Positions 30,459-51,013 of a stretch of DNA of 64,000 bases are shown piece by piece; the first letter of the stretch is position 1; every line of letters begins with the position of its first letter. Source of the stretch: Hericium rajendrae (lineage: Eukaryota > Basidiomycota > Agaricomycetes > Russulales > Hericiaceae); the NCBI GenBank assembly GCA_033439255.1, contig CM065881.1, forward strand, positions 558,001-622,000, in the 5' to 3' direction. A program made the translations under genes and the position numbers. Under the pieces are notes generated by a model. That model saw only the letters and a list, made by a program, of their open reading frames with translations, searched no databases and was not told where the DNA came from.

Positions 30459-32410
30459 GCGCCCCACTGTCCGGCGCCTATTGCGTTCAATGTTGTACAC
30501 CACGCCACTATGTCAGACCGTCCACGGCACTCACAGATGCCCGACATACAACGCGTCCCATCTGACTCCATGGTGTATGAGGTGTGTATCCGTGTCCTAC
30601 CAAACTTCCCCGTGATGTTGTTTCCAGCACAACGTCAAGCTGAGCGTATTATTGTTCACAGAAACGGAGACAATTGTATCTTCGCGATGGAGATGACTCT
30701 TATTGTCTTCGGTCTTCGTATCAAAGCCTATGTGCTAAACAATAATACTTGCTCCTATATCTACCGCCATTCATCGACGTTTCGGGAACGCCTTGTTCTC
30801 CTTTCGCCCCCTCACGTTCGTATTCATGGATCGGACTTCCGACTGCATCGTGTTGACAAACTTCAGGCGTCAAAAGAAGGCGGCGCAGAGAAGCCAGTAC
30901 CTGATTTGCGGCGCACTGGCAGTCTGCAGATCTGGGGATGATTCAGGCATGACGTCTGCGAGATAACCTACTCGCGAATGGCGCTGGTGGAGAGATTCTA
31001 GGTAAGCGCACACTTATATTTTAGCCATTCGTACGCAACATTCGCTGAAACAGGTCTTGATTCACTATGCAATTGCCGGTCGGTTTCGTACAAGAGATGG
31101 GTTCAGGGTGGCGGACGGGGCGTCGTCGTTGTCAGCAGCTAAGTCATCACCGCCACGTCTAGCATTCTAGGAATGCGATCTTCTATTGAATGCTCTGACG
31201 GCTATACTACCTATCAGGAGATGCAGTGGATTCCGGCGCGGGCGTGAGACCGCTCCGCGCTGAGGCGTTTCGACGACGTTTGAAGGCTAGAATCGAAGCC
31301 CCGAATCACTACCCGCGGGTCCTGGCTGCGCTTCTCCCAGATAGGATGCTGTTCTTGAAACGTGCTCCGTGGAAATCGAGTTGACGTTCCTTCCGGGCGA
31401 ATACGAGGCCGAAGAGTCTGCGTTGCCCTCGAATTAGCTGGATCTCGGCAACAATCACCCCAGGCGCCTTCTCTGTGCAGTTCTCAAATGTGCCATACAT
31501 ATAGTGCGGCGTGGCAGATCGGCTTCGCGTTCCATCCTCCGTGACGCAACGGATGTCGACTTGGGGCGCCGGAATGTACATCCAGCTCGAGCGACCTTGG
31601 ATCTTGTGCTCTTGAAAAAAATTATCTTCTCGACGACTCGGGACGAACGTACACCTAGATCTGGCATGGCTTCAGCACAGCGTATATTCAGATCTCCCGT
31701 ACAGCCATGAGGTCGTCAAAGCGTTGTGGCACTCTAACGCCATACACCTGCGCTCGACCCCTGCCTGACGGCACCCACCTCGAAAAGGCTCCGCGGCTCG
31801 CCTTCACGCGTCGTTCACTGGGTGGCGCTCTGATCTTCTTTATGACAAATACATAACTACATATCTGCGAATGTGCCCAGGCTGCGTCAACGGAACGCCT
31901 TCCCTCCTCCTAGCTCGTACAGATTCGCAATCAGCAGAGGTTCTATTTGTCATCTTTGAAGTTCGACGCCTCCGCTCCTGCTCCGCAGCTTTCAATTTGA
32001 TTCCGGACCCCACCGTTTGGCGTTGGTCCTCACTTAATTCCAAAGGTCCAGGCTGTCCGGCTCGTGCCCTCATCTAACTCTGATCTATGGCAACCGCGCC
32101 TGTGCACCTTTAGCGTTCTAGGAAATACTATGGATTCTGTGCGTCCGCAGTGACGCTTCGATCTCTGTGTCCATCGTCTGGGGTCAGGAAAACGTGGTCA
32201 TCGCGCATCCCGCCGCCTCTGCACGTCCTGATCTGGTGGTTCATACAGAGTGCCCCCGCGCCTTCCAGTGTTGTTCGTCGTAGACCCTTGCCACATAGCA
32301 CCGCCGCCCGAAATGAGTACTCCTGCGGCGCACTCAGCTTCAATGGCAACGCATGTTCGCGCATCGACTGTTGCCACAGCGCTCTGTTCGTTGGATGTGA
32401 CCCTCGCCAC
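30459..32410. repeat. Direct repeat of about 1.95 kb, copy A (copy B at 36655-38628)
   Basis: From GCGCCCCACTGTCCGGCG near 30459 to CTGACCCTCGCCAC-like sequence near 32410, this stretch matches copy B in order along its whole length. About 85-90 percent of bases agree by eye and small indels are present. The sequence on either side differs between copies. Inside, the minus strand has frames with coding character in copy A only (for example EKAPGVIVAEIQLIRGQRRL near 31480-31420 and GIKLKAAEQERRRRTSK near 32010-31960), so a decayed gene on the minus strand is possible. I recognise no transposase, reverse transcriptase or other family. It could be a segmental duplication or two copies of an unknown element. 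Confidence 0.8.
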
Positions 32411-33291: not shown

Positions 33292-35153
33292 ATGGTACGA
33301 ATTATCTTCAACGATTCAGAGGATGAGGCGAATCACAAAGCAGGGCTACTGCGGTAATCCACCACTTACCACTCACGTTCAAAGCTCACAAGACTCTTAA
33401 CAGCGATCCGGCGGATATTGAGGAGCTACATGATTACCTCGTCCACAAGAAAACTTGGCTCGATACTTGCGATTTTTGCATTCGAAGGGCCGAAGAGGAG
33501 TCAGATGTCCCGTCAGCCTCTCAGCCTTCCCTGTACATTCGTGATGACGACAACGTCAAGAAGATGCCAATATTGGGCCTGCTTCCTGAACTTTTGGTGA
33601 ATATCTTTCTGTTTTTGATGCAAGACGATCCTCCACGAGTTCAGGAGACATGGGATGCCTCGCAAACCAATGTTCTCCGGAACCCATATCTCGGTTGGAC
33701 TTGGGTCACCCATGTATGCAGGCGTTGGCGAGTGGTCGCAATTTCAGCGGCTGTTTTATGGACGGACGTCTGCCAAGGTGCTGTTCTTGGTCCATCATGG
33801 ACGGAAGCATTCATGTCAAGGGCAAGATCTGCTGCTGTAACAATCAGGCGCTTTGACGATCACCGCAAGTCTTTGGAACTGCTGTGCGATTATATTCTAG
33901 ACCATCCAGCCCATCTTCGCCATGTTGCTCTATCTGCATCGTGGGCCCCGCCTCCTTTACTTGTAGAATGGACTTCCACTTGGTCTTCGGTGCTGGTGTC
34001 AGCTGATCTAGATGGCGGCGTTGGCCATTACCTGTCTCCTCCTTTATTCGGTGGATACGCACCAAACCTACGACGTTTGAAACTCTCTAATATCCACCCC
34101 TGGAGATGCCATAGTCTCCTTAGTGGTCTCGTCGAGCTTGACGTCTTCCTTTGCAGCTCCTTCCCGCCCGACATGGCCTCGGGCGATCCCGATCCGATCC
34201 TGATCGGAATTCTCCCGTCCATTTCACAGGCGCTCGATGTCTTGGATGAAGCGCCGATGCTGCAACGTCTAGCACTCCACTATGCCTTCCCCTCAGATGA
34301 TTTGCCTGTCGCTGATCGCCGGAAGGCATATCTAAATCAGGTCCAAGAGTTATCTCTTTCCGCGAAGATTATGGACTGCGTCTCTTTCTTCACTCGGGTC
34401 GTTGTTCCCTATAACGCAACCTTGAATCTGACATGCATCCCTGGTTTACACTCGGAGAAGTTTCATGACTTGTTCTGCATATTGTCAGGCGGTCTAGGCC
34501 ATATAGGTGGCGGTGAGCCATCGATCATATCCCGCCTAGAAATTGGTACAGGGAAATTTGGCGATATATGTCTGTTCCGCGTGTATACAGATTCACGTGG
34601 GGTCATTCTACAGCAGATCGAAACAGCGCAGAGATGCAATTTCTTACCGAAGCCCTTCATTACACTATCTTTGGCTTATGCGACTTCTCCGCAACATGTT
34701 TATGTCGTGCAAAAGTTCTTCGCTACGATGCCTCTGCACGACTTGTCATACCTTGCAATTTACGGGTGCTGGCATATTGATCCTGATGGCTGGCGGACGA
34801 TAGTCAGATACAGCTATGCTTATTTGCAGAGCGTGCACTTCCTTGTGCTGAGCCGGGATTGCGCGCAATACTTCTTCCATGCGATCCATGATGACGAGAT
34901 GTTGACATCCGAGCTGCACCCTCTGGCTTTCCCGAATCTAGACACATTGATCCTCCGTAACATTGACTTCTCCATGTTGTCTTGTGCATTCGACAAAGTC
35001 TCATTCCAGGAGCAAATGATGTATGACTTACACGATCGAGAACGCAGAGGGAGGAAGCTGCGAGTCCTTTATTTTATTTCCTGCCAAGGACTTGACGAAT
35101 CGTGGGTCACAGACCTGAGAGAAGTCGTTCATTTCGTTGTATTCGGATTCTGA
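33292..35153 (+). CDS. F-box/LRR-like protein (603 aa, two exons)
   Basis: Exon 1 (33292-33353) is 62 nt: MVRIIFNDSEDEANHKAGLL plus CG of a split Arg codon. A 50-nt intron (GTAATC...AACAG) joins exon 2 (33404-35153), giving 603 aa. The join reads LLRDPADIEELHDYLVHKKTW. The F-box is LGLLPELLVNIFLFLM, then DDPPRVQETWDASQ, LGWTWVTHVCRRWRVVAI and LWTDVCQGAVLGPSW. The repeat part contains MASGDPDPILIGILPSISQ, MLQRLALHYAFPSDDLPVA and LNLTCIPGLHSEKF, nearly word for word as in 41895-43788. The end is KLRVLYFISCQGLDESWV. The donor GTAATC is unusual, but the position is fixed by the same CG| split in its relatives. A decayed FMP52-like gene follows tail to tail. Likely SCF adaptor by family. Confidence 0.87.
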
Positions 35154-35337
35154 CCTTTCAAATAACGGTCAGTCCATGTTCTACCATTCGGTGTGACGCG
35201 TGAATTACTTGGCTCACATAGTCTCTGCGCAACAGGTGTCTGTCAACTATAACAATTTAGTTTCACGAAGGAACAAGCAGTCAACTAGAATCTCACCCTC
35301 ATTAGTACACGGAAGATACAACAAAAAAAATCAACAC

Positions 35338-36270
35338 CTATGCGTCCGTCTCGGAAAACTTTACTGCCGTCTTGTTCCCAATCGCGACTTATCTCGTCTC
35401 GCCTGTACTCGCAGGCAAGTTGGGAGCCGAGTTGTCCTGCGACGCACATTAACTTGACCAGGCACAGAAAGCGGATCTGGAGAGAAGAGGTGAACTGGGA
35501 GAAGATGACAATGAGGCCACTGCAGCGAGACGAGAGGAGGGAATGGAAAAGCACAGGGAGGAAACGACGTACCTGGAGGTGGTCTCCAGATGCCAGAACT
35601 TGGATCTCAGGGTTCTTGAAGAAGCTAGGGTAGAAGACGACGATCTTCGAAGTCGCAGAAGGCTGAGAGGTCAGGCGCTATTCTGTCAGGCCTATGGAAT
35701 GCGGGGAGAATGCGAAGGATCTCCGAGTCTGGTCGGAGCCCGCCGCTTACCGCGAGGACACGGTTGAGGACACGAAGGATGAAGACGAAGTTCCGGAACT
35801 CACGGAGAGATAGAGAAGACATAGTGAGTGGTTCGGAACGTTTGTCCGGGCAGTTTTGGCATACGATGGTGTATCTAGGAGGATGGACTGGCTGGCTCAT
35901 ACTACGAGGACGAGCGAGAAGGTGGTTCGCGATTTTTGACAGCAGCAAGCGATCCGGCATTCTTCGCTGTGCTTCCAAGTCTGTCTGTATTCTTATGTAC
36001 CATATGTACGATACGAGTCTTGATCGAGTAGTAAGTATATTGGTGGCGAGATCATCAGGCGTGAAAGATCTTTCACGCACCCTTCATTTAGTATTACACT
36101 TAGTAGGTAACGAGAAAAGTCGAGCAGAGAATTTCGTACTCTCTGCCACCGCCCATTGAAATTGAATGACATTCTTGCAATCCGGATCCCTGAAAGAAAT
36201 GATGTCATCACGGAGGACATCGTGGGCTACGAGTCGAACGCGTTGGACGAAGGTAAGTAATATTCTTAAT
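35338..36270 (-). pseudogene. Decayed FMP52-like gene, copy A (behind F-box 33292)
   Basis: The minus strand shows pieces matching the intact FMP52-like gene at 51710-52754 in the same order. Near 36250-36180 is AHDVLRDDIISF against GRHVLRELLLSP. Near 35990-35940 is LGSTAKNAGSLAAVKNRE against LGTTAKNAGSSAAFEKIDRE. Near 35640-35590 is KIVVFYPSFFKNPEIQV against DTIVFRPGFLKNADRGEF. Then come VIFSQFTSSLQI against GIFSHFTSTLEI, AGQLGSQLACE against AGQLGSKDLPP, and finally VAIGNKTAVKFSETDA with the stop at 35338-35340, against VAIGNRGAVKLAEVDA. The pieces lie in differing frames with many small indels and the glycine-rich nucleotide-binding motif is not readable. This is a host gene relic. Confidence 0.8.
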
Positions 36271-36624
36271 GAAGTCAATGGCTTTGACATTTGAATCCTC
36301 GTATATACCTCTCAACGTCATCAGACCAGTCCCGTTCCCTGACGCCATATAGGAGACGTCAAAACAAGCCATAGGCATCGATGGATTGAAAGGTGAATGG
36401 AGTAACCTCTGTGCAAACCTGCAAGGAGGAAGGAGGAGGACTCTGTGGCCGATGTCGACATGGTTTGACAGGATTGCCTCAACCGAGTCAGACGAATCAC
36501 AGTAAGGGTCTCGAATCACCCCTTTCACTTCTCCAATTCATTGCCTCACAGACCGGCGTCGGCATCGCCAGCTATCATGGTAGTATTGTCTAGTCGCGAG
36601 CGGATGGGAGCCGCCATGCGATGG

Positions 36625-36679
36625 TAGGCGCCGGACAGCGGGGCGCTTCATGATGAAGCGCCCCGCTGTCCGGCGCCTA
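36625..36679. repeat. Perfect 27-bp inverted repeat with 1-nt centre
   Basis: Left arm 36625-36651 (starts TAGGCGCCGGACAGCGGGGC) and right arm 36653-36679 are exact reverse complements with a single G at 36652 between them. The right arm is also the first 25 or so bases of repeat copy B. Copy A has the right arm with one change but only a poor left arm. Such a perfect palindrome could form a cruciform, or be a trace of an inversion or hairpin-ended insertion. The bases from 36271 to 36624 hold no gene that I can see. Confidence 0.9.
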
Positions 36680-38628
36680 TTGCGTTCAACTTGCACTTCA
36701 AGTTGTACACCGAATCTACTGTATAGGGTTCCACTGCGCATACCACTCCATGTACCCAGCATTCGACGCGTTCCATCTGGCTCTGCGAGGTGTGTATCCT
36801 TGTCCTGTCAAGCTTCCTCGGGCCGTTGTTTCCAGCACAACGTCAAGCTGAGCTTATTATTGTTCGTAGAAACGGAGACAATTGTCTCTTCTCGATGGAG
36901 ACGGCTCTTATCGTCTTCGGTCTTCGTATCAAAGCCTCTGTGCTAAACAATAATACTTGCTCCTATATCTACCGCCATTCATCGACGTTTCGGGAGCGCC
37001 TTGTTCTCCTTTCGCCCTTCACGTTCGTATTCATGGATCGGACTTCTGACTGCATCGTGTTGACAAACAGGCGTCAAAAGAAGGCGGCGCAGAGAAGCCA
37101 GTACCTGATTTGCGGCGCACTGGCAGCCTGCAGATCTGGGGATGATTCAGGCATGACGTCTGCGAGGTAACCTACTCGCGAATGGCGGTGTAGAGGGATT
37201 CTAGGTGAGCTGACACTTATCTTTTAGCCATCTGTACGCAACATTCGCTCCAACAGGTCTTGATTCATTATGCAATTGCTGGTCGGTTTCGTACAAGAGA
37301 TGGGTTCAGGGTAGCGGACGGGGCGTCGTCGTTGTCAGCAGCTAAGTCATCACCGCCACGTCTAGCATTCTAGGAATGCGATCTTCTATCGAATGCATTG
37401 ATGCCTATACTACCTATCAGGCGATGCAGTGGATTCCGCCGCGGGCGCGAGACCATTCCGCGCTGAGGCGTTTGGAAGACGTCTGAAGGCTAGAACTGAA
37501 GTCCCGAATTTCTATCCGCAGATCCTGGCTGTGCTTCTCCCAGATAGAATGCTTTCCTGTGAAACGTGCTCCGTGGAAATCGAGTTGGCGTTCCTTCCGT
37601 CCGGGCGGACACGAGGCGGAAGAGTCTGCGTTGCCCTCGAATTAGCTAGATCTTGGCAGCGACCCCCCAGGCGACTTCTCTGGGCAGTTTTCATTGCGCT
37701 ATACATATAGTGCGGCGTGGCAGGATGGCTTCGCATTCTGTCCTCCGTGACGCAACGGATGTCGACTTGGGGCGCCGGAATGTACATCCAGCTCGAGCGA
37801 CCTTGGATCTTGTGCTCTTGAAAAAAATTATCTTCTCGACGACTCGGGACGAACGTACACCTAGATCTGGCATGGATTCAGCACAGCGTATATTCAGATT
37901 CCCCGTACAGCCATGAGGTCGTCAAAGCGTTGTGGCACTCTGACGCCATACACCTGCGCTCGACCCCTGCCTGAAGGCACCTACCTCGAAAAGGCTCCAC
38001 GGCCTGCCTTCACGCGTCGTTCACCTGGTGGCGCTTTGATCTGCTTTGAATACATAACTACGTATCCGCGAATATGCCCAGGCTGTGTCAACGGAACGCC
38101 CTCTCCCCGTCCTAGCTCGTACAGACTCGCGACCAAGCAGAGGTCCTATTTGTCATCCTTGAAGTTCGACGCCTCCGCTCCTGCTCCGCAGCTTTCAATT
38201 TGATTCTGGATCCCATCGTTTGGCGTCGGCCCTCAGTCAATTCAAAAGGTCCAAGCTGTCCAGCTCGTGCCCTCACCTAACTCTGATCTATGGCAACCGT
38301 GCCTGTGCACCTATAGCTTTTTAGGAAATTCTATGAATTCTGTACGTTCGCAGTGACGCTTCGATCTCTGTGTCCATCGACTGGGGTCAGGAAAACGTGG
38401 TTATCGCGCATCCCGCCGCCTCTGCGCGTCCTGATTTGGCGCTTCATACAGAGTGCCCCCGCGCCTTCCAGCGTTCGTCGTAGACCCTTGCCACATGGCA
38501 CCGCCGCCCGAAATCAGCTAACGCTGGACGTGCCGTTACTCCTGCGGCGCACTCAGCTTGAATGGCAACGCGTGTTCGCGCATCGACTCTTGCCACAGCG
38601 CTCTGCTCGGTTGGATCTGACCCTCGCC
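36655..38628. repeat. Direct repeat of about 1.97 kb, copy B (copy A at 30459-32410)
   Basis: This is collinear with copy A at an offset of about 6.2 kb. Shared landmarks include the near-identical run through CAACGTCAAGCTGAGC (36840 against 30633), the string AACAATAATACTTGCTCC, the stretch AAAAAAATTATCTTCTCGAC, and the ending CTCTGYTCGGTTGGATSTGACC. In this copy the minus-strand frame that looks coding in copy A is shifted, which suggests decay after duplication. The left end coincides with the inverted repeat at 36625-36679. No family is recognised. Confidence 0.8.
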
Positions 38629-39336
38629 ACCAGCACTTGGTGTCATCGACGACTATAAAATCCCCACCATGGTCGTCTGTCAATAGCATCCCACATCTGC
38701 TTCGCTCAACCAATCTTCCGAATCCTCCGCTCTCAACGCTCCTAGGTCAAAGCTCCTCGCCAGCTCTACCCTCCTCGCCAGCTCTACCTCTTTGCCCGTC
38801 CTGCCTCCCTGCCCGTCCTGCCTCCTCTCCCGGGATTTTCCAGTTTTAGGGCGGATCTCGACATTTTATCCCAAGTGAACGATGTCGCCACTGCAACGTC
38901 AGACCATCGCCTGTAAATCCGGATGTGTCTTGCAAAATTGTCAGCATGTTTTCATTGTAAGTGATCGGGATGTTTATTTGTTTATTCAACTGACCGTATC
39001 GTTCGGAACTTTTGGTATATCGAAGTCTCTCGCTCAAATTCCACCTTCGGCGAGCTCCAGGAAAACAAATGCTCCGGCTCCTTCAAGACAAGAACGACGA
39101 CTCGACAGGTCTGTTTGCATCCTGAGCGTCAAGAGGTGGGCGGGTCGCAAGTCCTCGACACGAGGTGCAAGGTTTTTGACAAGGGGGGAGGGGGGGTATG
39201 TAAGCACGTCAACGTCAGGATCGGGTAAGGAGAGATCTCGCGGGACCCCAGAACATGCCTATAGCTATCCAAGTCGACAGCTTTGACGCAGCTCGTTCAT
39301 TGTAGCTGGTATTTTATAGAATCTAACAACATGATG
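38629..39336. other. Intergenic stretch
   Basis: This lies between repeat copy B and the mobile-element fragment. It has a CT-rich part with short GCTCTACC-type duplications near 38760-38820 and a G run near 39183-39197. No gene is seen. Confidence 0.4.
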
Positions 39337-40995
39337 CTATTGTACATACAGTGGGAATCGAGACTGAGAAACAGTGACACAGAGAGACGTAATGTGGCCA
39401 ACAGTGGGCATGACTCGAGTGAATACAGTATGATTTCGAAGCGTGCGAAGAGATGGGATTCCTGAGCACTGGCTCATAGCGTAGAGAAGGGCACGGCCAC
39501 CCATGCGATAGATCAATGTCGATACGTCCATGTCCGAGGTGGTGAAATTAGCAGGGCGGTAAAGGCCCTCGACGGCACTTCTGATCTTGCGTACTATCGC
39601 AGAGATGCTAGCGCCATTTCGCAGCGCAGTCTGGACAATGGCGTGGACTCGAGGGACGTTTTTCTCCGCAATCGCCATGACAAAGCGCCTGTAGTCGGCC
39701 GCTTTTTGCGTCGCGGTGCCTATCTTTCGAGCCATGTTGAGCATCTTATAAGATTTTGATTTAGCATAATGAAGACACGACGAGATAGTAGTGAGCTTAC
39801 CCTGAGCTTCCACCTGTTAATCTCAGTATTGCGATCTGCAAGTAATCCACGAAGCTGCGACGCGCTGAAGTACGAATGGCCAGCAAACTGGAGCCCTGGC
39901 GTGCAAAACCGATGAGGGTGTCGATGCGCCTTGGAACGTCGCTGCATGCGTTACAAGGCTCCGGTTGCTTCAAACCCAGAGCTTTCCGGCTGCATACTTT
40001 TGAGAATGCGCGGCGCTTGCCATTCCTATCGGTGGTCACGATGAAGGTGAGTGATTTGGGCTCGTCGCCGATACGAGACCAAGGGAACGTGTTGTTAAAA
40101 TTCCCGAGGTCATCCGGCCAATGTATCTCGATGCCTGGACACTCGTCGAGTGACGCTGTTGCACCGGAGGTCGATTCGACAGGTTCGCTTGAGGACCGCT
40201 GTCGCCTCATACTAGAATAGCGGCTACACGGTCACCATTAGTAGCTATACAGAAAAATATATTCAAACTACTGCAGCTTACCTTTTATATAAGAAGTCTT
40301 GTTCAGGCTCTTCAAGATGTGCTTTTTCAGGAAAGGGGAACGTGAGCGAACGCGTGCGCGACAATTGATTATTGTTGCTCGGTGCTCGCCAAGTTTGCAG
40401 CAAGCTGTTCGCGCTGTGTCGTGATACAAGTCAGAGAGCACCGCTTGCGACTGTTCCGGTGGCTCTCCAGGGTGTTGAAATGACCAGAAGCTGAGCCAAA
40501 CGAGTTGATGGCCTTGATTCCAGATGAGATCCATTGTTCGCAGTCCGGGCATTGGACCTCCCAAGATCCCGAGTCAGCTCTGGCAACAAGTAGTCCGAGA
40601 CTAAAGGCTTCATGCAGCGCGACCATGGAGTTCTGTATGGGAAGGCGTACACGATGGGCTTCTGGAGAGTTGTTACGAGTCGGAAAGAATGACTGAGACG
40701 CCGTCGACGGCGAAGGTGTGGGAAATAGAAAGGACGAGGAAAGCGCCGGTCCTGGCGCTAAAACGAACGGATCATCGGCTTGACGCGTGAGATTTGTCGT
40801 TACGGAGTTGTTATTGAGTCGAGGAAAAGGTTCAGATGCTCTTCGAGAAAGCTGAAAGGCAGACTGTAAAGGAAAATCATAAGGAAGGGGCTCTGGTATG
40901 AGAGTAGAGTCGAGAGTTGGAGGATCATGCATGGAACTAGGAAGAGGGCTGAAAAATGGATAATTATGATTGAATTGATTGTCCGGTGAGGCCAT
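39337..40995 (-). mobile_element. 5' fragment of a multi-copy agaricomycete element gene (possible DNA transposon)
   Basis: The minus-strand ATG at 40993-40995 opens a Pro/Ser-rich frame leading to a zinc-site-like part, WEVQCPDCEQWIS ... FNTLESHRNSRKRC. After probable introns near 40290-40215, another part reads CPGIEIHWPDDLGNFNNTFPWSR, VCSRKALG, CNACSDVPRRIDTLIGFA, then (in another frame) SQLRGLLADRNTEINRWKLRV. An intron follows from about 39797 and the last part is FVMAIAEKNVPRVHAIVQTA, DVSTLIYRMGGRALLYAMSQ, GIPSLRTLRNHTVFTRVMPTVG, ending at 39337. From memory this is the N-terminal half of a large protein family, very numerous in mushroom genomes, whose C-terminal half looks P-element/THAP9-transposase-like. 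That half is absent here, and the frame change near 39900 agrees with a dead, truncated copy. Confidence 0.6.
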
Positions 40996-41894
40996 GATGC
41001 GATTATAAGTATTTAGAGGGTTGTATGCACTGATTATACGAAGGGATGTATGCGACAAGAGGAGGACGCGACGCGTCGAACGCGACGCGTCTTTCGAATG
41101 GATCACGAGATCCAGAGCCGGAAATCCATGAGTAAATGACACTTTTATTCGTCTGCACGAAATACACTTTGTTACCCGTCAATTTAACCACCTAGAATAG
41201 ATTTTATATACTACTTTTGGGGGTGTATAGTTGGTCACTTCAACGATACACTGAAGCGTTAAGTTGTGTTCACGGTTTTTCGATTTTGAGTGCAGAGATT
41301 CACCTCTGAGGACCCCGGACAGTAATTAGAAGGGGGGTTGTCATCGGGCCGAGGGGTACCTCGTGTCGGTCGCTTTCCATCCGCCCACCTCTTGCTGAGC
41401 GTTCACATGAATATGGAAATATTTACTGTCGATCCCAGCCATATCGGCCATCAGCGAATGAAAGAGCCAGTCGTCGTGCAAGCGTGCCAACAGCACTACC
41501 AGTAATATTATGTTGTCAGCATGTCCATCTGCTGATTGACTCTATCATGGACCGAGCCCTGCTTCCCCTGTCTGTATTTAAACATGTTGTTCTTCTCAGT
41601 CCGCACAGCGCAGACATACATTAATGTTAGTAGCCACTTTGACCTTAGTGTAGCTGGAAATGTGCTCCTTAGCGGCTTCCACGACTGTGACATGATTCCC
41701 AACGCTCGGAGGAGTTCGGAAGAATGATGGCGGTATCAAGTTATTTAGACTTTACTGCAAGACGCCAAGCGCCAACAGGCGCCGACCCAACCTCGACGCG
41801 TGCGCCTAGCGTGCGCGCCGTTCATCGATTATCTATCCACTGCAACTTGCTCGCCAGACATTGCACGACTCTGTACCTCTTTCTCCACTCAAAC
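40996..41894. other. Intergenic stretch
   Basis: This lies upstream of both the element fragment (minus) and the F-box gene at 41895 (plus). It includes a doubled CGACGCGTC near 41068-41091. No gene is seen. Confidence 0.4.
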
Positions 41895-43788
41895 ATGGTT
41901 CATATGCACTTTCATGATCCTATATTCGAGGCTGATTTCAGGGCCCAACTACTTCGGTAAGTCACTCCCTGCCTTGCGTTTTAATATCGATAGGACATCC
42001 GACACCTATAACAGCAATCCGGCCGACATATTGCAACTTGACGATATACTTGCAAATAGAAAGAAGTGGCTGGATACCTGTGACGTATGTTTCAAGGAGA
42101 GTGGCGATGGGATCGATGCTCTATCACCTTCAGCCACGGCATACACCTGTGAGCCCGAGAATGATTTCACCGGAGGCTCTCCGATAGTTCGCTTGCTTCC
42201 AGAGCTATTGATAGAAATCTTTCTTTTATTGACGAAAGAAGAACCGCCACGGCTTCGAGAGACTTGGGATGTCTCCTGTAACCGCATCATCACAAATCCG
42301 CATCTAGGTTGGATCCCAGGAGTCACACATGTCTGCAGTCGCTGGCGTAGTATCGGTATCAACGCAGCCATCCTTTGGGCAGATCTTAGCCACGGCGCTA
42401 TTTTAGGATCATTGTGGACACAAGAGTTCATGTCGCGGGCAAAGTCTGCACCCATAACCATTAGACGGTTTGACGAATGTCCCATTGGCTCTATAGGCTT
42501 GTTATGTGACTATATCCAGGACCACTCTCCACACATCCGCGACCTCACTCTGTCAGCAGATTGGACTTCTTACAGTCTTGTGGATGACGTATCTGGGACG
42601 TTCTCCTCGATGTTGGTCTCAGCCAGTCTGGATCTTGGTATCGGGGGTTTCATGGCCCCTGTTCTTTTTGGTGCTTACGCGCCAAATCTCAAACGGCTTA
42701 AACTCACTAACCTTCATCCATGGAAGTCTTTCAATTTCCTTGAACACCTGCTCGAACTTGATGTGTTTCTGTGTACTTCTTATGGGCCTGACATGGCTTC
42801 GGGCGACCCGGATCCAATCCTAATTGGAATTCTCCCTTCCATCTCGCAGGTGCTCGACGTCTTAGATGAAGCGACAATGCTGCAACGTCTGGCACTTCAC
42901 TATGCGTTCCCCTCAGATGACCTACCAGTTGCTAATCGCCGAAAAACATATCTGGACCACATCCAAGAGCTTTCCCTTTCCGCCAAGATCGTGGATTGCA
43001 TCTCTTTCTTTTCCCGGGTCGTCATTCCATACAACGCATCGTTGGATCTGACATGCATCCCGGGTCTACACTCGGAGAAATTTCAGGACCTGTTCGGGGT
43101 GTTGACAGACCGTCTGGCGCCCCTAGGCAGCGAGCCATCAATTATATCCCGCCTAGAAGTTGGTACGGGAAAAGTCGGCGATAAATGTCTGTTCCGCATC
43201 TATACAGACTCCCATCGGGCAGTTGTTCAGAAGGCCAGAACATCGTCAAGAGATATAGTGCCTCCGCGATGCGATTCGTCGTCGAAGCCCTTTATCACGT
43301 TGTCTTTGGCGTACGCGACATATCTGCAACACGTATATGTTCTGCGAAACTTCTTCTCTACAATGCCTCTGCACGACTTGACATACCTCGCGATTTTCGG
43401 GTGCTGGCATGTTGATCCCGATGGCTGGCGGACGATATTCAGAGACAGCCATACTTTCTTGCAGAGTGTGCGCTTCCTTGTACTAGGTCAGGATTGCGCT
43501 CAGTACTTCTTCCATGCGATTCACGACGAGGAAATATCGGCCCCCGAGCTGCGTCGTCTGGCTTTCCCGAATCTAGACGCCTTAATCCTCCGTAATATCA
43601 ACTTCGCCACGTTCTCTTGTGCTCTCGACGAAATATCATTCCAGGAGCAGATGATACACAACTTACATGATCGAGAGCGCAGAGGGAGGAAGCTTCGAGT
43701 CCTTTATTTTATTTCGTGCCAAGGACTCGATGAATCATGGGTCGCAGACCTGAGAGAGGTCGTCCGTTTTGTTGTATTCGGGTTGTGA
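41895..43788 (+). CDS. F-box/LRR-like protein (611 aa, two exons)
   Basis: Exon 1 (41895-41956, 62 nt) encodes MVHMHFHDPIFEADFRAQLL plus CG. A 58-nt intron (GTAAGT...AACAG) precedes exon 2 (42015-43788), giving 611 aa. The join is LLRNPADILQLDDILANRKKW, matching LLRDPADIEELHDYLVHKKTW of 33292. The F-box is VRLLPELLIEIFLLLT, then EEPPRLRETWDVSC, LGWIPGVTHVCSRWR (with an extra residue after the Trp) and LWADLSHGAILGSLW. The middle repeats MASGDPDPILIGILPSISQ and MLQRLALHYAFPSDDLPVA are almost identical to 33292, so the two genes are recent duplicates. It ends KLRVLYFISCQGLDESWV. A decayed FMP52-like gene follows tail to tail, as with 33292. The open frame runs further upstream of exon 2 but has no ATG there; the two-exon model is preferred. 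Confidence 0.87.
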
Positions 43789-43933
43789 CGTTCCAAAAAA
43801 TGGTCAGCCCGTTTTCTGCCATTCAGCGTGAATAAATTGGCTCACATAGTCTCTGTGCAACAGGTGTCTATCAACTATAATAATAATTTCACAAAGGAAT
43901 TCGCGGAATTTACAATTAAAAAAAATGCAATAC

Positions 43934-44810
43934 CTATGCGTCCATCTCGGACAACTTTACTCCCCCCTTGTTCCCAATCACGACTTATCTCTTCTCGCCT
44001 GTACTCGCAGACAAGTTGGTCAAGCCTAGTCATCCTGCGATGCACGTCAGCTTCGCCACGCGTGAGACTTGAATCTGAAGAGAAGACGTGTATGGGATAG
44101 GATGACGAGATGAGACTACTGCAGCAAGAGGTTAGGAGGGAATAAAGGAGAGGTGGAGGAATGACGTACCCGAAGGTTGTCTCTGCGGGAACTTGAGGTT
44201 CAGGGTTCTTGGAGAAGCTAGGGCAGAAAGCGACAACTTTCGAAGTTGCTGAAGGCTGAGAGGATCTGCTCTGAAGGATGTCGGGTTGGAGCCTGCCGCC
44301 GACCGCGAGGGCAAAGTTGAGTACACGAAGGATGAGGGCAAAGTTTGTGGACTCACGGAGAAGTAGAGAAGACACGGTGATGACTCGGAACGTTTGTCGA
44401 GGCAGTTTTGGCGGACAATGGGGTATTTGGAAGGATGGGACTGGCTGGTTCGTATGAAGGCGAGCGGGGAGGTTGTTCGCAGTCTAACTTAATTTCCGAC
44501 AGCAGTAAGTAATTCGGTATTCTTCGCTGTGGTTCCAAGTCTGTCTGTATTCTTACGTACCATATGTACGATACAAGCCATGGTCGACTGGTATATTGGT
44601 GGCAAAACTCTCAGACGTGAACGGCCTTTCAAGTTTACGCATCCTTCTAGTATAGTAGGTATTGAGGAGAGTCGACCAGGGAAATTTGTACTCTGTGCCT
44701 TGGCACATCGAAACTGAATAACACTCTGGCAATCAGTAATCCTCGCATATGAGAAGAGGAAAGCCGCCATCAGTGAGGCAATGGTAGGCCATCGAACGCG
44801 TCAGATGAAG
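43934..44810 (-). pseudogene. Decayed FMP52-like gene, copy B (behind F-box 41895)
   Basis: Matching pieces on the minus strand, in order, begin near 44790-44740 with a faint match to the first helix region. Near 44560-44500 is DRLGTTAKNTELLTAVGN against LGTTAKNAGSSAAFEK. Near 44260-44190 is KVVAFCPSFSKNPEPQVPAE against DTIVFRPGFLKNADRGEFRL. The last piece is VVIGNKGGVKLSEMDA with its stop at 43934-43936, against VAIGNRGAVKLAEVDA. Shared intron-like bases just before the LGTT block also match copies A and C. The pieces sit in different frames. Copies A and B stay alignable past the gene, to about 36360 and 44910, so the duplicated block included flanking DNA. Confidence 0.8.
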
Positions 44811-45200
44811 GTAAGTGATCTAGATTGGTCTTTGAAATTTGAGTTCTCGTATTTACCTCTCAATATCATCAAGCTAGTCCCATTCTCGGCTGTACGTGAT
44901 GTAGAAGACGTTTGAACAAGATTGAGGTTCTGACGAATTGAGGTTGCATGAAGGATAACCTCAGCCTGTCGACGGCCCAAGGAAGGAAGGAAGGACGCAA
45001 TTTCCTGAGATCATCGTGATGACGTGTAAGCCACAACCCCGTCCAACTGTGGCCAACTGTACCGACACCGCCGCGGTACGGCCCGCTCGAGTCCAACCAC
45101 TTATTGTCGCCACCGTGACAGAGAAGACGACTTTTTCAACTCACCTCTGAGTCTTGCACTCTTGCACTTAATCACACACTAAAACTTTCTTTGTTCGAGA
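44811..45200. other. Intergenic stretch (promoter side of 45201)
   Basis: Its first 100 bases still match the flank of decayed copy A (36270-36370). The rest should be the promoter of the F-box gene at 45201. Nothing else is seen. Confidence 0.4.
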
Positions 45201-47095
45201 ATGCGTACACTTATCGCATCCCCTGAAAACGAAGAGTACTTCAAGGCGTCGCTTATTCGGTACGCTCGACACCTTGCATTCCACCTCGGAACAGATAAAG
45301 CTTACCATGGAATTTCAGCTATCCTTTTTACATGGAAAACCTTCAGCACAATTTGAAACACCGTAAGGATGAAATTCTCGCTTGTAAAGGATGCCCGCAG
45401 CTGCAGCAACAAGGTGAAAACCTTCTATACACCAGATCAGTCAGTGCAGTGCTCGATGATGATCATGTCTGGGCCGGATCTCTTGCCATTTTGTCTATTT
45501 CGACCTTGCTTCCCGAGTTGTTGTTGGAGATATTTCATATCTTGACTTTGGAAGACCCTCCGCTTATCCGGGAGACTTGGGATGCTTCAGCAACAAAGAC
45601 ACTTTCGACGCCACATCTCGGTTGGATCCATGTTACTCACGTCTGCAGGCGTTGGCGGCGTCTAGCGGTCGGGACAGGTGCTCTATGGACCAACTTCGGT
45701 CACGGTCTGATTCTTGGGTCATCATGGACACATGAATTCATAGCTCGGGCAAAAGGTGCGAATGTGTCGATCCCACCATTTGACGATTATCCTCGGTCGC
45801 TAGACTTAATATCTGGTTATATCATGGATCATTCATCGCACATCCGCGACATAACGCTGTCTGCAGAGTGGACGTCCGTGTTTTTGATATGGGATTTTTG
45901 CGATCTCTTCTTACCAATGACGGTTTCGGCCAATCTGGATGCTGGAAAGTATAATTGGCACAACGCCGATCTTTTTGGAGGTTATGCTCCAAACCTCAGG
46001 CATCTACGCTTATGCAATATCGTTCCCTGGACAGCTCACTCTTTCCTGGGAAATTTGATTGAACTAGACGTGTTTATGTGCGACGATGAGCCCATCTGCG
46101 AGGCTGGAGGCGTAATCACGGTGACAGGCGAAGTTGAGCCTGTCGGACTGTTTATTTTTCCTCCTCTCGCGCAGGTTCTTGACGTCTTAGACGAGGCGTC
46201 CAGCTTGGAACACCTTTCACTTCATTATGCGATTCCCCCGGAGGACCCATCAGCCGAAGAGTCTCGCAAAGTACATTTTCCTCGCCTCAAATCCTTTTCC
46301 ATGTCTAGTAAAGTTCGGGATTGCGTCTCTTTCCTGAACCGGATCGTCCTTCCTCATGGCGTGACACTAGACTTGACTTGCATACCTGGCTTATCTCCAG
46401 AGACGTTTCGGGATCTTTTCCATGCCTTAACATACGGCGTTCATAGCGCAGGAGAGCCATGTCCGCCTATAGACCGCTTGGAGCTTGGCACAGGCAGAGT
46501 TGATGACAGGGTCTTGATCCGTGTGTATGGCGGTCACGCAAACTGTCTCACGAGAACTCATTCTTCGGAGTTATTCAATCTACCACCGAGACTGATGATT
46601 ACCTTGTCTTTGGCTTATGCCTCACCCCAGGATCACAAAGTTGTATTACAGAGTTTCTTTTCGTCGATGCCCTTACAAGACCTCACCTACCTCAGTGTTT
46701 ACCGATGCTCAACCGTTCAGCCCGAAGGCTGGCGATCCATTATCAGGGATAACTACGGTTTCTTGCAGAGCGTTCGTTTTCTGGTACTCGGCCACGATTG
46801 CGCCCAATACTTCTTCCATGCCATTCACGACAAAGACGACTTTCTGTCCGGCTTCGGCCCAACCGCCTTCCCAAATCTCGACCGTCTCATCTTCCGCCGA
46901 GTCGACTTCTCCATGTTTCCTCAAGGCGATGTCTCTGGAGCATCGTTCCAGGATCAGATGCTCTATCATCTTCGGGAGCGGATACGCAGAGGCAAGCCGC
47001 TGCGGGATGTCTTCTTCTTTTCGTGCCAGGGGATCGAGGAGGAGTGGCTCCGAAGTCTGGAAGAATTGGTCAAATTCGTCAGATTGGGATTATGA
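45201..47095 (+). CDS. F-box/LRR-like protein (611 aa, two exons)
   Basis: Exon 1 (45201-45259, 59 nt) encodes MRTLIASPENEEYFKASLI plus CG of a split Arg codon. The intron is 59 nt (45260-45318, GTACGC...TTTCAG) and exon 2 is 45319-47095, giving 611 aa. A charged helix with a Cys pair (RKDEILACKGCPQLQQQ) precedes the F-box STLLPELLLEIFHILT. Then come EDPPLIRETWDASA, LGWIHVTHVCRRWRRLAV and LWTNFGHGLILGSSW. The repeat part has VLDVLDEASSLEHLSLHYAI and LDLTCIPGLSPETF, and the end is PLRDVFFFSCQGIEEEWL. It shares gene plan and subfamily with 33292 and 41895 but is more diverged. A decayed FMP52-like gene lies behind it. Likely SCF adaptor by family. Confidence 0.87.
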
Positions 47096-47265
47096 ACCCC
47101 CGAAGAAACTGTGAGTCTGCGCTTCGTCGTTCGAGATTCAACTTATTGACGTGTCGGGCCAAGGAGGACGCCTATCAAATGTATTTATACCACCAACGCA
47201 AAAGAGTCAATTGGAAATCTCATTTCGGACACGGAAAACAATGTAAAAGCAAAATTAAAACACCT

Positions 47266-48000
47266 CTTTGCGTCCACTTTGGCCAACTTTATTTCTATTC
47301 ACGATATGTACTTGTCTTTGCCTCACCCGCGGACTCGAACTTCTCCGCCTTCACGTGCGTAGGCAAGTTGGAAAAGCTGACATCCTCCGCGATACTTATC
47401 ACCTTGGCCAGTGGCGAGACGTCGATCTGGAGAGAAGAGAAGAAGTGAAAGAAGATGCCGGTGGGGCCGCGGCAAATGATTGCGAAGGAATGAAGGATGG
47501 GAGGGAGGGAAGCAACGCACCCAAAGACGGACTCCACGAGCCAGAATTTGGGTTATCTGAGCGGCGGAAGACGGCATCCGGGAAGGCGAGCGCTGCAAGA
47601 CGTTGCTTTGATGTGATCCTTGGAAGCAGATAGAGGCGAAGGATTCCGGGTGGGAACACACCATCCGCAAGAATGCAACATACGACGAGAAGGGCAAACG
47701 CGAGGTTCGAGGACTTACCGAGCGGTACGCGAGGCGTTGCTTATAATTGAGAGATCGGTCTGTGCGACTTTAGAGTGGAGTTGATGAAGGTGTCTAAGAA
47801 GACGGGAGAGGTTGGGTCATGTGAAGGTGGGCTGGGAGTACTGAAAGCACTCGGAGTCGTGATCTATCTTTTCGTATGCAGCGGGGGATCCAGCATTTTT
47901 CACTGCATTTCCAATCTGTGTATACCATAAGGACCGAATGTACGATACGAATCGTCATTCATCATTTACCGGGCGCGTCCCCGACGTCGGATTCCATGGT
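47266..48000 (-). pseudogene. Decayed FMP52-like gene, copy C (behind F-box 45201)
   Basis: Minus-strand pieces begin near 47900-47860 with IGNAVKNAGSPAAYEKIDHD, against LGTTAKNAGSSAAFEKIDRE. Near 47470-47400 is IFFHFFSSLQIDVSPLAKVI, against GIFSHFTSTLEIDVARLAKAI. Next is FSNLPTHVKAEKFESAGEAKT, against SKDLPPSAEAEKREAAGEGKT. The last is KLAKVDA near 47285, against KLAEVDA, with no stop codon left at the homologous place. Several frame changes separate the pieces and the N-terminal nucleotide-binding part is not clear beyond about 47970. This copy is of the same origin as A and B but more eroded at its 5' side. Confidence 0.78.
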
Positions 48001-48271
48001 TGAGGCAATCTTGTCATGATTATCGCATCAGACGAATCATACTTAGTGTATCGTACCGTCTCTCTCACCTCTAAAACTTATCCGACCGACATCGAAGGCT
48101 CGCCTGGCAGTACTTACGATTCGAGTGAAAGCCGCGAAGGAGGATGGACGGGATCCCGCACCGCGCGCCGGCCGTGATTGGATGACGTAATCCATGCGGT
48201 GCCCGTGCTCCCCATAACCCCGGCCATCGCCCGCGTAGTCTACGACTTATCCTTGTTCCTCCTGGAACACC

Positions 48272-51013
48272 ATGTCTCTACAGGTAAACCTATCTAGTCC
48301 AGATATATCCAAGGCATATCAGGATGTCCTGAATTCGCGTGGGATCGATTGGGCGATCTTCACCTACGACAAAGGCTCGAACGACTTGAAAGTGCAGGGA
48401 ACGGGCGATGGCGGGCTCGAAGAGCTCGAGGAAGAGTTTTCAGATGGGCGGTGAGTGTGTCCAAGACGGCTATTGACATTTATTAATTTCTGGCATCAGC
48501 ATTCAATATGCGTTCGCGCGAGTGACCGATCCAAACGTAGGCTCCCAAACGTGACGCGTATCGGAGGTTGTGCTGATGACTTGGACCTCCAGAGTCAACT
48601 GCCGAAATTCGTGCAGATAAATTGGTGTGGTGATGGTGTACCCGTAGGCAAGAAGGGTCTCTTCCATACGCACTCCTCTGCCGTATCACACTTCCTCCAG
48701 GGCACGCATGTTGTCGTCAATGCGCGTAACGAGGTCAGTACTTCTTCTTGGTCTTCTACCTCAACTTCCCATCGTATCAGGAGACACACCGAATTCCATT
48801 CTACCTGTCTCGCCGTCTGATGTCTAACCGTGACTTCTATCTGACAGGCCGATGTCGCTCCTGCCCTCATCATGTCCCGCATCGAATCGGCGTCCGGCTC
48901 GAGGTACTCCGCCCACAACGAGCAAGCCCGCAAATTCGAGCCCATCACGCCCGTGGGCACGAGCTATACCCCCGTAGGCAAAGTCGACATCGCAGCACTC
49001 CGGCGCACGCCCCAATCCGGCACGCCCTCCGCATCCGCATCTCCCGCGCCACCTACCGCGGCGCGCCCGGTCCCACCACCTACAAGCAGGCCCGTTCCGC
49101 CCCCGGCGTCGCGGGCTCCTCCGCCAACTGCTGCGCGGCCAAGCCAGGCGTCCGTCCCCATCTTCGGCCAAAGGCAAGCCCCCGCTGACTCGTGGGACGA
49201 CGAGCTGCCCGCTCCGGCAGCTGCTCCGCCGCCGCCTGCCGCACCTAGACCCGCCTTCTCAGCAGCACCGTCTCCCGCCGCGTCGAGGCAGGCATTCTCA
49301 GCGGCGTCACCTGCTGCTGCCCCCAGGCCAGCCTTCTCCGCAGCGCCCTCTTCGCCTGCGCCATCCTTCTCCCCAGCTTCGACGCAGCGCGTCCCCGAGG
49401 CGAAAGCGTCCACCAAGCCCGCCGAAGAAGACCGCATCGCGCCCGTAGTATGTCTCACTCACACCTTCCCGCTTCCGTACACCTGCTCATCCCACCCGGC
49501 AGGGCACGGCCTACACGCCCGTTTCGCTCCCCGCGCCAAAAAAGCTCCACAACCCCTTCGCGCGCTTCGAAACGCAGGCCGCACAGCCCCCGCCGCCGCG
49601 CCCCGTCTCCGGCGCGCACACGGGCGGGAAGCTCACCTGGAGCGAGCGGCAGGCGCTCGCAAAGAAGCGCGACGAGGAGGAGGAGGCGCGCAGCCGCGGC
49701 GCGGGCATCGCGGCCCCAAGCCCGCCTGCGTTCAGCGCGCCGTCGTTCGGACGCGCGGTGCCGCCGGCGCCGTCGAGTGGGTTCGGGAGGACTGCGGCTG
49801 CTGCTGCGGGCGGCGCGGCGGTTGGTGCGGCGGGTGCTGCTCTGGCGCGTTCTGTGCTCGAGCCTGAGCCTGAACCTGAGCCCGAATGGGAGCCGGAGCC
49901 TGAAGCTGCTGTGAGTATCTGGTACTATTTCTCGTTGCATGGAGTCTGATTTTGTACTTGCGTAGCCTCCGCCGCCGCCGCCGCCCCCACCGCCTGCTGC
50001 AACGCGGCCGCCGGTGGAGCCTGAACCCGAGCATGAAGTCGAAGAGGAAGCTCCACCGCCTCCGCCTCCACCGCCTCCTCCACCGCCGCCCGCGCCACCT
50101 GTTGCGCAGGTAAGCCTGAATTTAATCGTGATGGACGTGCACCTTGTTGACGATGAGATTTCAGATGGCGCAGCTCAGCGTCCAGGAGCCCGAGCCCGTG
50201 CCTGAACCTGAACCGGAGCTTGTGGCCGCTCCGGTACCTGCAACGGGAGGACAAGGTCTCGTCGCCGTGGTCCTCTACGAATACGAGGTGCGTAGTGTCG
50301 CTGCATGCGACGACTGGAGACTGACTTACTCCCGTCTAACAGGCTACGGAAGACAACGAGATGTCGCTCGTCGAGGGCGAGTATATCGAGCAGATCGAGC
50401 AGCTTGACGAGGGCTGGTGGTCTGGCGTCGGCCAGGGCGGCGCGAAGATGGGCTTGTTCCCAGGTGCGTCGCTCTATACTGTGCAGTTTTAGTTCATGTA
50501 GCTGACAGTTTCGGTGCAGCCAATTATGTGGAGCTCGTCGAGGTGGAACAGCCCACAGAGCCCGAACCCGAGCCGGAGGCCGAGGCCCCTCCTCCGCCTC
50601 CGCCACCACCGCCGCCTCCCCCGCCTCCTGTAAGCATCGTAACTTCTCACTATCGAATGCCATCTGATTGACAAACAGCCCGTCGCGGCGGCTGCGCCCG
50701 AGCCCGAACCCGAGCCTGCCGCAGACGAAGGCAGCGTCGCCATCGCCTTATACGAGTACGTCCCCATCCTTTCCTCTCGCGCCCGTTTAGCTGACGTCCC
50801 GCGTCTTTAGCTACGAGGCGGGCGAGGACAACGAGATCTCGTTCCGCGAGGGCGATCGGATCGTCGAGATCGAGGCGGCGTCGGATGACTGGTGGTCCGG
50901 GAAGAACTCAGCGGGGCATGTGGGGTTGTTCCCTGGTAAGTTCTTTTGTGCTCTTCGTTGGTCGGGTGATGGGGCTGATGGGTTGTGTAGCGAATTATGT
51001 TGAGCTGCAGTGA
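48272..51013 (+). CDS. ABP1: Actin-binding protein Abp1/drebrin-like (695 aa, 12 exons)
   Basis: Exons: 48272-48450, 48500-48536, 48593-48733, 48848-49447, 49503-49910, 49966-50109, 50165-50287, 50343-50463, 50520-50629, 50679-50755, 50811-50935, 50991-51013. All introns are GT-AG and the join is open for 695 aa. An ADF-homology domain (residues 1-135; YQDVLNSRGIDWAIFTYD, FARVTDPNSQLPKFVQINW) binds F-actin. A long Pro/Ala/Ser linker follows, with PAFSAAPS repeats and an acidic patch (DSWDDELP). Then come EPEPEPE runs and polyproline tracts. Two SH3 domains end the protein: VAVVLYEYEATEDNEMSLVE...WWSG...LFPANYVELVE (about 536-592) and VAIALYDYEAGEDNEISFRE...WWSG...LFPANYVELQ (about 640-695). 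It acts in cortical actin patches and endocytosis, recruiting partners through SH3. The polyproline tracts begin or end at phase-0 introns, so exon skipping could change them. Confidence 0.93.

Follow-up and report, generated by a model that had tools for sequence, protein, structure and literature searches.

In a window of 64,000 nucleotides, the whole stretch of Hericium rajendrae DNA analysed here, three F-box-like genes are each followed by an inverted, disrupted copy of part of an FMP52-like gene that stands intact nearby. The arrangement raises the question of whether F-box and FMP52 genes were once partners, of which one was kept and the other decayed, or whether a piece of the one was carried along as the other multiplied.

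The F-box genes and the intact FMP52-like gene

The genes concerned are the following.

33292-33353 and 33404-35153, plus strand: F1, F-box-like gene; intron 33354-33403; open frame of 603 codons
41895-41956 and 42015-43788, plus strand: F2, F-box-like gene; intron 41957-42014; open
45201-45259 and 45319-47095, plus strand: F3, F-box-like gene; intron 45260-45318; open
28474-30120, plus strand: F0, the nearest other F-box relative
51710-52754, plus strand: intact FMP52-like gene of 255 amino acids; six exons, 51710-51722, 51780-52026, 52080-52139, 52199-52271, 52324-52487 and 52544-52754

F1, F2 and F3 each consist of a short exon 1 and a remainder set off by a single intron, and F1 is 68% identical to F2, 49% to F3 and 43% to F0. 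Against the Pfam F-box-like model (PF12937), F3 (E 6.8e-6) and F0 score over the cut-off of 24.3, and F1 (15.5 bits, E 0.015) and F2 (11.6 bits, E 0.24) score under it; F1 and F2 cluster with F3 and F0 in the tree, which reads (F0,(F3,(F1,F2))) with support of 0.966 and 1.000 and places F0 outside F1-F3. The genome holds at least 82 scored F1-like matches, F1 itself counted. For the FMP52-like gene, the splice model was read by eye and then translated; the predicted protein, a member of the NAD-binding family by sequence, matches Pfam NAD_binding_10 (E 5.8e-7) and, in the PDB, TIP30 (2bka, E 8.3e-17).

The relics are intron-bearing fragments of FMP52

A preliminary description of this DNA had placed a convergent, minus-strand relic of FMP52 behind each of the F-box genes at 33292, 41895 and 45201, and these relics are real.

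35338-35980, minus strand: relic 1, FMP52 exons 6 to 3 with introns 5-3; blastn E 9e-44
43934-44540, minus strand: relic 2, FMP52 exons 6 to 3; blastn E 3e-28
47270-47914, minus strand: relic 3, FMP52 exons 6 to 3; blastn E 2e-49

Local scores against FMP52 are 158, 142 and 171 for relics 1, 2 and 3, and none of 400 same-length pieces of real DNA, drawn from 20 other F-box loci of this genome, reaches the relic score in any of the three cases (control maxima 46, 43 and 43). Nucleotide alignment with 51710-52754, the check that the preliminary description had proposed, likewise puts each relic above all of its shuffles (0/200 as high). Pieces of real DNA were used as the control because shuffles alone proved too lenient: among 40 locus-and-strand scans of other F-box loci, in which only scans scoring >26 were shuffled, 18 beat all 30 shuffles. 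Exons 3-6 were each detected in every relic (12 of 12 combinations, with 0/200 shuffles as high, or 1/200 for exon 4 in relic 2), and introns 3-5 lie at corresponding alignment positions in all three, at 50-54% identity. An origin as retrocopies (processed pseudogenes) was rejected on account of these introns.

Frame-shifting exon indels are present in each relic. Relics 1 and 2 also contain internal stops within the matched frames and, in the alignment, keep the final TAG in register; in relic 3 the stop codon is gone and the frameshifts are its own. With significant similarity to a functional gene, retained introns and a destroyed open frame, the relics are, as far as their DNA tells, non-processed pseudogene fragments of FMP52, for which absence of a protein is predicted. 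Rfam gave no match at the gathering threshold. Inverted relative to the F-box genes, the relics start 185, 146 and 175 bp past the stop codons of F1, F2 and F3, a range of 146-185 bp. Their extent had been overestimated, with ends set at 36270, 44810 and 48000; the similarity of relic 1 to FMP52 stops near 35984. A match once thought to run from the first helix to the last residues stands for exons 3-6, and exons 1-2 were not found.

Units 1 and 2 share one relic history

Relics 1 and 2 are ~80% alike and have indels in common, frame-shifting ones among them: +1 at 52411, -2 at 52452 and -27 at 52673 in FMP52 coordinates. The likeness reaches into the F-box genes: between F1 and F2, 24 of 79 fourfold sites are alike up to about codon 289 of F1, which is saturation, and 67 of 105 beyond it, with a change point at that codon (window position 34206; 2dLL 57.8, 0/500 permutations). 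The outer end of the similarity lies at 36489 in unit 1 and 45043 in unit 2.

34206-36489, unstranded: part of unit 1 that was homogenised with unit 2 (counterpart ~42830-45043, the start in F2 read off by eye); contains the F-box 3' half, the relic and part of the relic 5' flank

On these alignments, the F-box 3' halves and the relic of units 1 and 2 are a segment homogenised later, and from the abrupt change of synonymous divergence within the gene, a criterion of gene conversion, we infer that conversion was the process. Relics 1 and 2 thus represent one relic homogenised later, which leaves at most two relic histories; the independent decay in three copies that had been proposed is contradicted by the shared lesions and the homogenised stretch. 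Selection on the F-box part, also proposed, was borne out. The F1-F2 dN/dS is 0.18 over the whole gene (NG86, with dS saturated in the 5' half) and 0.19 (NG86) or 0.36 (YN00) in the 3' half, and the differences between relics 1 and 2 are spread evenly over FMP52 codon positions (28/145, 29/145 and 29/144).

Exons 1-2 were found in no relic

When the upstream flanks were scored against real-DNA controls, none of the three relics yielded exons 1-2, which make up the NAD-binding half. The scores of 10.8, 11.1 and 13.1 for relics 1, 2 and 3 each lie under the real-DNA mean, and 391, 383 and 188 of the 400 real-DNA pieces, respectively, score as high. Simulated exon 1-2 copies at relic divergence were recognised in 300 of 300 cases, with a lowest score of 37.9 compared to a real-DNA maximum of 37.0.

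35981-36655, unstranded: relic 1 5' flank; 44 bp common with relic 3, ~424 bp, then ~200 bp

The ~424 bp are matched in unit 2 and show no match to FMP52 exons 1-2; the last ~200 bp are alignable with unit 3, where blastn finds only 54 bp. In length, the ~424 bp approximate what would be expected of lost exons 1-2 with their introns and leader.

Relics 1/2 and relic 3 are 58-59% alike in exons 3-6 and have no frameshift in common there. Changes assigned by codon position are nearly even in relics 1/2 (18, 12 and 12) and in relic 3 (22, 21 and 26), and those separating FMP52 from both relic groups number 11, 2 and 18, with second positions avoided (2/110). The lack of a common exon frameshift and the scarcity of second-position changes imply that drift in the common relic ancestor had been slight, or that constraint on it persisted. 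This is what would be seen if a complete convergent F-box and FMP52 pair had been duplicated and the FMP52 copies had then decayed separately, the F-box genes being kept: a constrained ancestor is expected to yield FMP52-side differences of the 11, 2, 18 kind, each decay would carry its own frameshifts, and the ~424 bp spacing upstream of relic 1 would suit lost exons 1-2 and makes their separate loss conceivable. However, exons 1-2 were found in no relic despite their recognition in every simulation, the ~424 bp (46% GC) hold no exon 2 trace, and relics 1 and 2 do not count as separate cases. We therefore consider duplication of a complete pair rather unlikely, and the preliminary claim that an intact partner decayed in all three units lacks support in that form.

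The relic DNA has changed slowly

Between units 1 and 2, K80 is 0.21 in the relic and 0.17 in the 3' flank, compared to 0.52 at fourfold sites of the adjoining exon (mismatches about 106/587 versus 38/105, Fisher p 7e-5, the first of these counts being rebuilt from a rounded rate). This slower change of relic DNA is unaccounted for by passive carriage. Fourfold sites between F1/F2 and F3 are near saturation (37/121 and, with windows summed, 47/127 alike), whereas relics 1/2 and relic 3 retain their 58-59% likeness in exons 3-6, and by a rough reckoning a common date for F-box genes and relics would need relic DNA to change 2-3 times slower.

A working role would account for the slow change, if the relic was kept for the F-box gene as a supplier of its 3' end or of read-through FMP52-antisense RNA. 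However, the contrast with synonymous sites is smaller by the YN00 estimate (dS 0.43 in the F1-F2 3' half), and repeated conversion may itself account for it. In addition, 10 of the 17 indels that separate relics 1 and 2 have lengths not divisible by three, no relic matches the FMP52 message exactly over more than 13 bases, which is short for silencing, and F0 does without such a stretch: no FMP52 relic was found behind it (downstream score z 0.7; scanning the window with exons 3-6 gave no match there). Retention for such a role thus appears improbable, and slightly more so the fuller proposal that the inverted fragment is a working 3' end or antisense element that owes to this function both its retention and its homogenisation along with the F-box 3' halves.

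The F-box gene and relic were duplicated as one block

Units 1 and 3 form one continuous alignment from F-box coding sequence into the relic (33565-36024 with 45492-47958, E 4e-124), and both flanks of relics 1 and 3 are alike (0/400 real-DNA controls as high for each), in agreement with the block duplication first described. F-box gene and relic share one duplicated block, but its FMP52 part is exons 3-6 only. The flanks of relics 2 and 3 match poorly (controls as high: 61/400 on the 5' side, 2/400 on the 3' side). The FMP52 3' flank shows suggestive homology to the 3' flank of relic 3 (3/400 controls as high), weak homology to that of relic 1 (17/400) and none to that of relic 2 (159/400). 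The strong divergence of relics 1/2 from relic 3 might indicate that FMP52 fragments were inserted separately behind each F-box gene, but the identical orientation and 5' limit, the similar distance, and the flanks shared on both sides by units 1 and 3 make this very unlikely. Chance similarity of the relics to FMP52 is the least credible reading of all, given scores of 142-171 that no real-DNA control equalled.

The pairing looks local to the window

A genome-wide protein search with E up to 10 returned the one intact FMP52 gene at 51710-52754 and the three relics; relic 1 appeared at only E 0.03, a sensitivity at which a more decayed relic could escape. Further F-box and FMP52 pairs elsewhere in the genome, as the preliminary description had suggested seeking, were found neither in this search nor in 20 loci around other F-box relatives, out of the at least 82 F1 matches. 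At the protein level these loci yielded nothing at E up to 1, and 4 of the 20 showed weak DNA matches to exons 3-6 (L026, E 0.002; L027, E 0.006; L032, E 0.047; L042, E 0.92). Forward exons scored slightly higher there than reversed letters (maximum 45.8 versus 34.6, mean 28.5 versus 23.7); a small FMP52 trace at these loci is conceivable. Searches with relic DNA were insensitive, one finding only its own query and another missing relic 3. Overall, the pairing looks local to the window.

Proposed history of the locus

We consider it probable, if well short of certain, that the relics descend from a 5'-truncated, inverted DNA copy of FMP52 carried as neutral cargo through tandem duplications of F-box genes. 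A DNA-level partial copy of the nearby FMP52-like gene would have been placed in inverted orientation behind the ancestral F-box gene once the latter had split from F0. The copy would have held exons 3-6 with introns 3-5, perhaps together with a piece of the 3' flank, but not the NAD-binding exons 1-2, and in that place it probably never worked as a gene. As the F-box unit then duplicated in tandem, the fragment would have gone with it, into unit 3 on one side and the forerunner of units 1 and 2 on the other. In a subsequent gene conversion or unequal exchange, F1 or F2 would have passed its 3' half and relic to its counterpart, hence the lesions common to relics 1 and 2. Purifying selection has kept the F-box genes while the fragments drifted. 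We infer both the truncation at birth and this order of events; ordinary genome evolution, not a partnership between F-box and FMP52 genes, is the most likely explanation.

The pseudogene fragment is then a passive tracer of the growth of a tandem F-box cluster, and a well-preserved example: it identifies the F-box genes of common descent, and the lesions shared by its copies reveal an exchange between F1 and F2 that is invisible in the whole-gene protein tree. It also advises caution, in that relics in homogenised paralogues should not be counted as independent losses.

Comparison with known systems

Yeast Fmp52 is described as a member of the SDR family that resides in the mitochondrial outer membrane and is required to tolerate trans-2-hexadecenal (PMC12124835). 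The intact gene resembles Fmp52 and TIP30-like short-chain dehydrogenases in its NAD-binding family, assigned by sequence, with putative orthology only; the relics differ in lacking the NAD-binding half. The at least 82 F1 matches are in keeping with mushroom-forming fungi, which have many F-box-like genes, some clustered, as in Flammulina filiformis with 210 annotated F-box genes (PMC7567395). The sharp synonymous change within a gene and the homogenised 3' part correspond to interlocus gene conversion between tandem paralogues, for which PMC3966223 gives a general description, whereas the stretch here crosses the gene end into a pseudogene. Finally, with introns in place, the 5' part missing, frameshifts and, between relics 1 and 2, no codon-position bias, the relics resemble other non-processed truncated pseudogene fragments and do not differ from them in kind; here, such a fragment has been multiplied as the cargo of another gene family.

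FMP52-like relics behind three F-box genes

The genome surveyed comprises 46.8 Mb on 19 contigs, with the window at C4:558001-622000. Three F-box-like genes, F1 (33292-35153), F2 (41895-43788) and F3 (45201-47095), follow a common plan of an open frame with a short exon 1, a single small intron and a long exon 2. F3 and the F-box relative F0 (28474-30120) lie above the Pfam cut-off for F-box-like domains, while F1 and F2 lie below it and are assigned by similarity. The intact FMP52-like gene (51710-52754, plus strand), the sole intact copy found in a genome search, encodes 255 residues in six exons according to a splice model drawn up by eye, and its protein matches Pfam NAD_binding_10 and TIP30 structures; the label FMP52, adopted from the preliminary description, does not imply orthology with the yeast gene. 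Between F3 with its relic and this gene, 48272-51014 holds what is probably a gene; it opens with a cofilin/ADF domain, also has an SH3 domain and resembles actin-binding protein Abp1.

Behind each of F1-F3 lies a remnant matching exons 3-6 of the FMP52-like gene, the F-box gene and its relic together forming a unit:

35338-35980, minus strand: relic 1, E 9e-44, local score 158
43934-44540, minus strand: relic 2, E 3e-28, local score 142
47270-47914, minus strand: relic 3, E 2e-49, local score 171

Real-DNA controls (400 same-length pieces from 20 other F-box loci in the same genome) had maximum scores of 46, 43 and 43 against relics 1, 2 and 3, respectively. Exons 3, 4, 5 and 6 were detected in every relic (12/12), with 0/200 shuffles scoring as high except for exon 4 in relic 2 (1/200). 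The relics, well above both shuffles and real-DNA controls at nucleotide level, are genuine, as the preliminary description had proposed. Exons 3-6 of the relics are 66-69% identical to the FMP52-like gene, and introns 3-5 are 50-54% identical; since these introns occur at matching places, the copy was made from DNA.

The same description had placed the start of the match at the first helix. Exons 1-2 were sought in the 5′ flanks of relics 1, 2 and 3 and not detected; the scores (10.8, 11.1 and 13.1) were below the random-genome averages in all three flanks (15.3, 15.3 and 13.9). All 300 simulated exon 1-2 copies, with 34% of sites changed plus indels and placed in random flanks, were recognised, the lowest (37.9) scoring above the highest real-DNA piece (37.0). 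Given this power, the data do not support a match that starts at the first helix, and the relics appear to be without the front half of the gene. Likeness of relic 1 to the FMP52-like gene ends ~4 bp upstream of exon 3, and its likeness to relic 3 extends to 44 bp upstream, where it is interrupted by ~424 bp that units 1 and 2 have and unit 3 lacks. Past this gap, weak likeness between units 1 and 3 returns for ~200 bp (54 bp of it by blastn). A ~30-base match in opposite orientation between 36466-36494 (unit 1) and 47985-48016 (unit 3; 81%, E 0.005) is perhaps a small inversion.

Joint duplication and later homogenisation

A single uninterrupted alignment joins units 1 and 3, running from F-box coding sequence on across the relic, and relics 1 and 3 resemble each other in both flanks (controls as high, 0/400 on each side); F-box gene and relic were therefore duplicated together, and the proposed block duplication stands. 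A tree of 13 F-box proteins places F0 outside F1, F2 and F3 (F1-F3 group with support 0.966, F1-F2 with 1.000), and no relic was found downstream of F0. In the simplest order, the ancestor of F1-F3 would have split from F0, the FMP52-like fragment would have arrived after that split, and a duplication would then have given rise to unit 3 on one side and to the common ancestor of units 1 and 2 on the other.

As far as codon 289, 36% of third codon positions are identical between F1 and F2, and 67% are identical thereafter, a breakpoint with 2dLL 57.8 (0/500 permutations); fourfold sites are alike at 24/79 before it and 67/105 after. No comparable breakpoint was found in F1-F3 or F2-F3 (53/500 and 261/500 permutations as high). 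Relics 1 and 2 are ~82% alike in pairwise alignment (K80 0.21, 587 sites); the four-way alignment puts their identity at 80% for exons 3-6 and 75% for introns 3-5. They have in common lesions of +1, -2 and -27 in exons 5 and 6. The breakpoint, the likeness of the relics and their common lesions together show later homogenisation of the 3′ halves and relic, the 5′ halves having begun diverging long before. We infer conversion or unequal exchange between the two units. Relics 1 and 2 are therefore not independent, and the claim that one partner was kept and the other lost three times over, independently, fails as stated. Its selective component is upheld: dN/dS for F1-F2 (0.18 over the gene by NG86; 0.19 by NG86 or 0.36 by YN00 in the 3′ half) indicates purifying selection on the F-box genes.

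Decay and rate of change of the relics

Differences between relics 1 and 2 are even across FMP52 codon positions (28/145, 29/145 and 29/144). Only sites identical in relics 1 and 2 were used to assign changes, with disagreeing or gapped sites excluded. For codon positions 1-3, the common branch of relics 1 and 2 carries 18, 12 and 12 changes (of 109, 110 and 108 sites), relic 3 carries 22, 21 and 26, and 11, 2 and 18 separate FMP52 from both relic groups; 3, 1 and 4 sites differ in all. These counts suggest that the relics drifted after splitting, with little drift before; either the fragment multiplied soon after arising or its ancestor was still constrained. Such limited early drift, and the lack of any exon frameshift common to relics 1/2 and relic 3, would suit the history put forward in the preliminary description, duplication of a complete FMP52-like partner with the F-box gene, the copies decaying separately, but exons 1-2 are missing in all three relics, and we consider that history the less likely one. 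We favour a 5′-truncated, inverted fragment behind one F-box gene, copied along as neutral cargo.

Fourfold sites are alike at 37/121 in F1-F3 and 47/127 in F2-F3 (summed windows), near saturation, and therefore allow no absolute dating. Between units 1 and 2, the relic and its 3′ flank have diverged less than the fourfold sites next to them in the F-box exon:

35154-35980: less diverged stretch, unit 1
43789-44540: less diverged stretch, unit 2

Divergence is 0.21 in relic DNA versus 0.52 at the fourfold sites (mismatches ~106/587, a count rebuilt from the rounded rate, versus 38/105; Fisher p 7e-5), and the contrast lessens when YN00 dS (0.43) is used instead. Relic DNA also seems, roughly, slower than fourfold sites for units 1/2 versus unit 3. 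Several causes could each play a part in this apparent slowness: constraint on the relic, conversion that recurred, gaps in the alignment that make non-coding DNA look more alike, and fast F-box synonymous change. A relic function is not otherwise indicated, given that 10 of the 17 indels separating relics 1 and 2 are frame-shifting and the longest exact matches to the FMP52 message are 13, 11 and 12 bases (relics 1, 2 and 3).

Other duplications in the window

A ~2 kb repeat (88% alike) lies behind F0 (30457-32410) and behind unit 1 (36656-38630), with two copies in all found in the genome. A palindrome (36627-36677, 25-base arms), whose arm has no further occurrence in the window, marks the left edge of the copy behind unit 1. 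Nested inverted duplications lie within 1927-5317 and 9770-12519:

1927-2465 with 12519-11981: outer pair, 70% alike, in F-box-like ORFs, one above and one below the Pfam cut-off
4260-5317 with 10823-9770: inner pair, 74% alike, no Pfam match at E 0.01

Tandem copies at 13412-14990, 19650-21228 and 22053-23370 are 65-71% alike and carry long minus-strand ORFs (19655-21382 weakly F-box-like; 13417-15087 with no Pfam match at E 0.01). Tandem duplicates at 55495-57288 and 57916-59645 are 67-75% alike, also with minus-strand ORFs (55482-57266 weakly F-box-like; 57882-58898 with no Pfam match at E 0.01).

Generality and relation to known systems

Searched genome-wide, the FMP52 protein matched the exons of the intact gene, all three relics and, weakly, one place on C3 (E 1.16). 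Relic 1 came up at no better than E 0.03, and weaker relics could therefore be missed. At 20 loci drawn from the surroundings of other F-box relatives (at least 82 matches to F1 in the genome, F1 included), no protein-level match appeared (E up to 1); four of the loci gave weak DNA matches (best E 0.002). In the literature on FMP52, basidiomycete/Agaricomycetes F-box expansion, pseudogenes with gene conversion, and TIP30 with F-box and pseudogene, the titles and opening abstract lines of the matches listed, mostly open-access, mention no F-box and FMP52-like pairing. The analysis confirms the relics as pseudogene fragments, truncated and borne along by a tandem F-box cluster in which two units underwent an exchange, a phenomenon of an ordinary kind.
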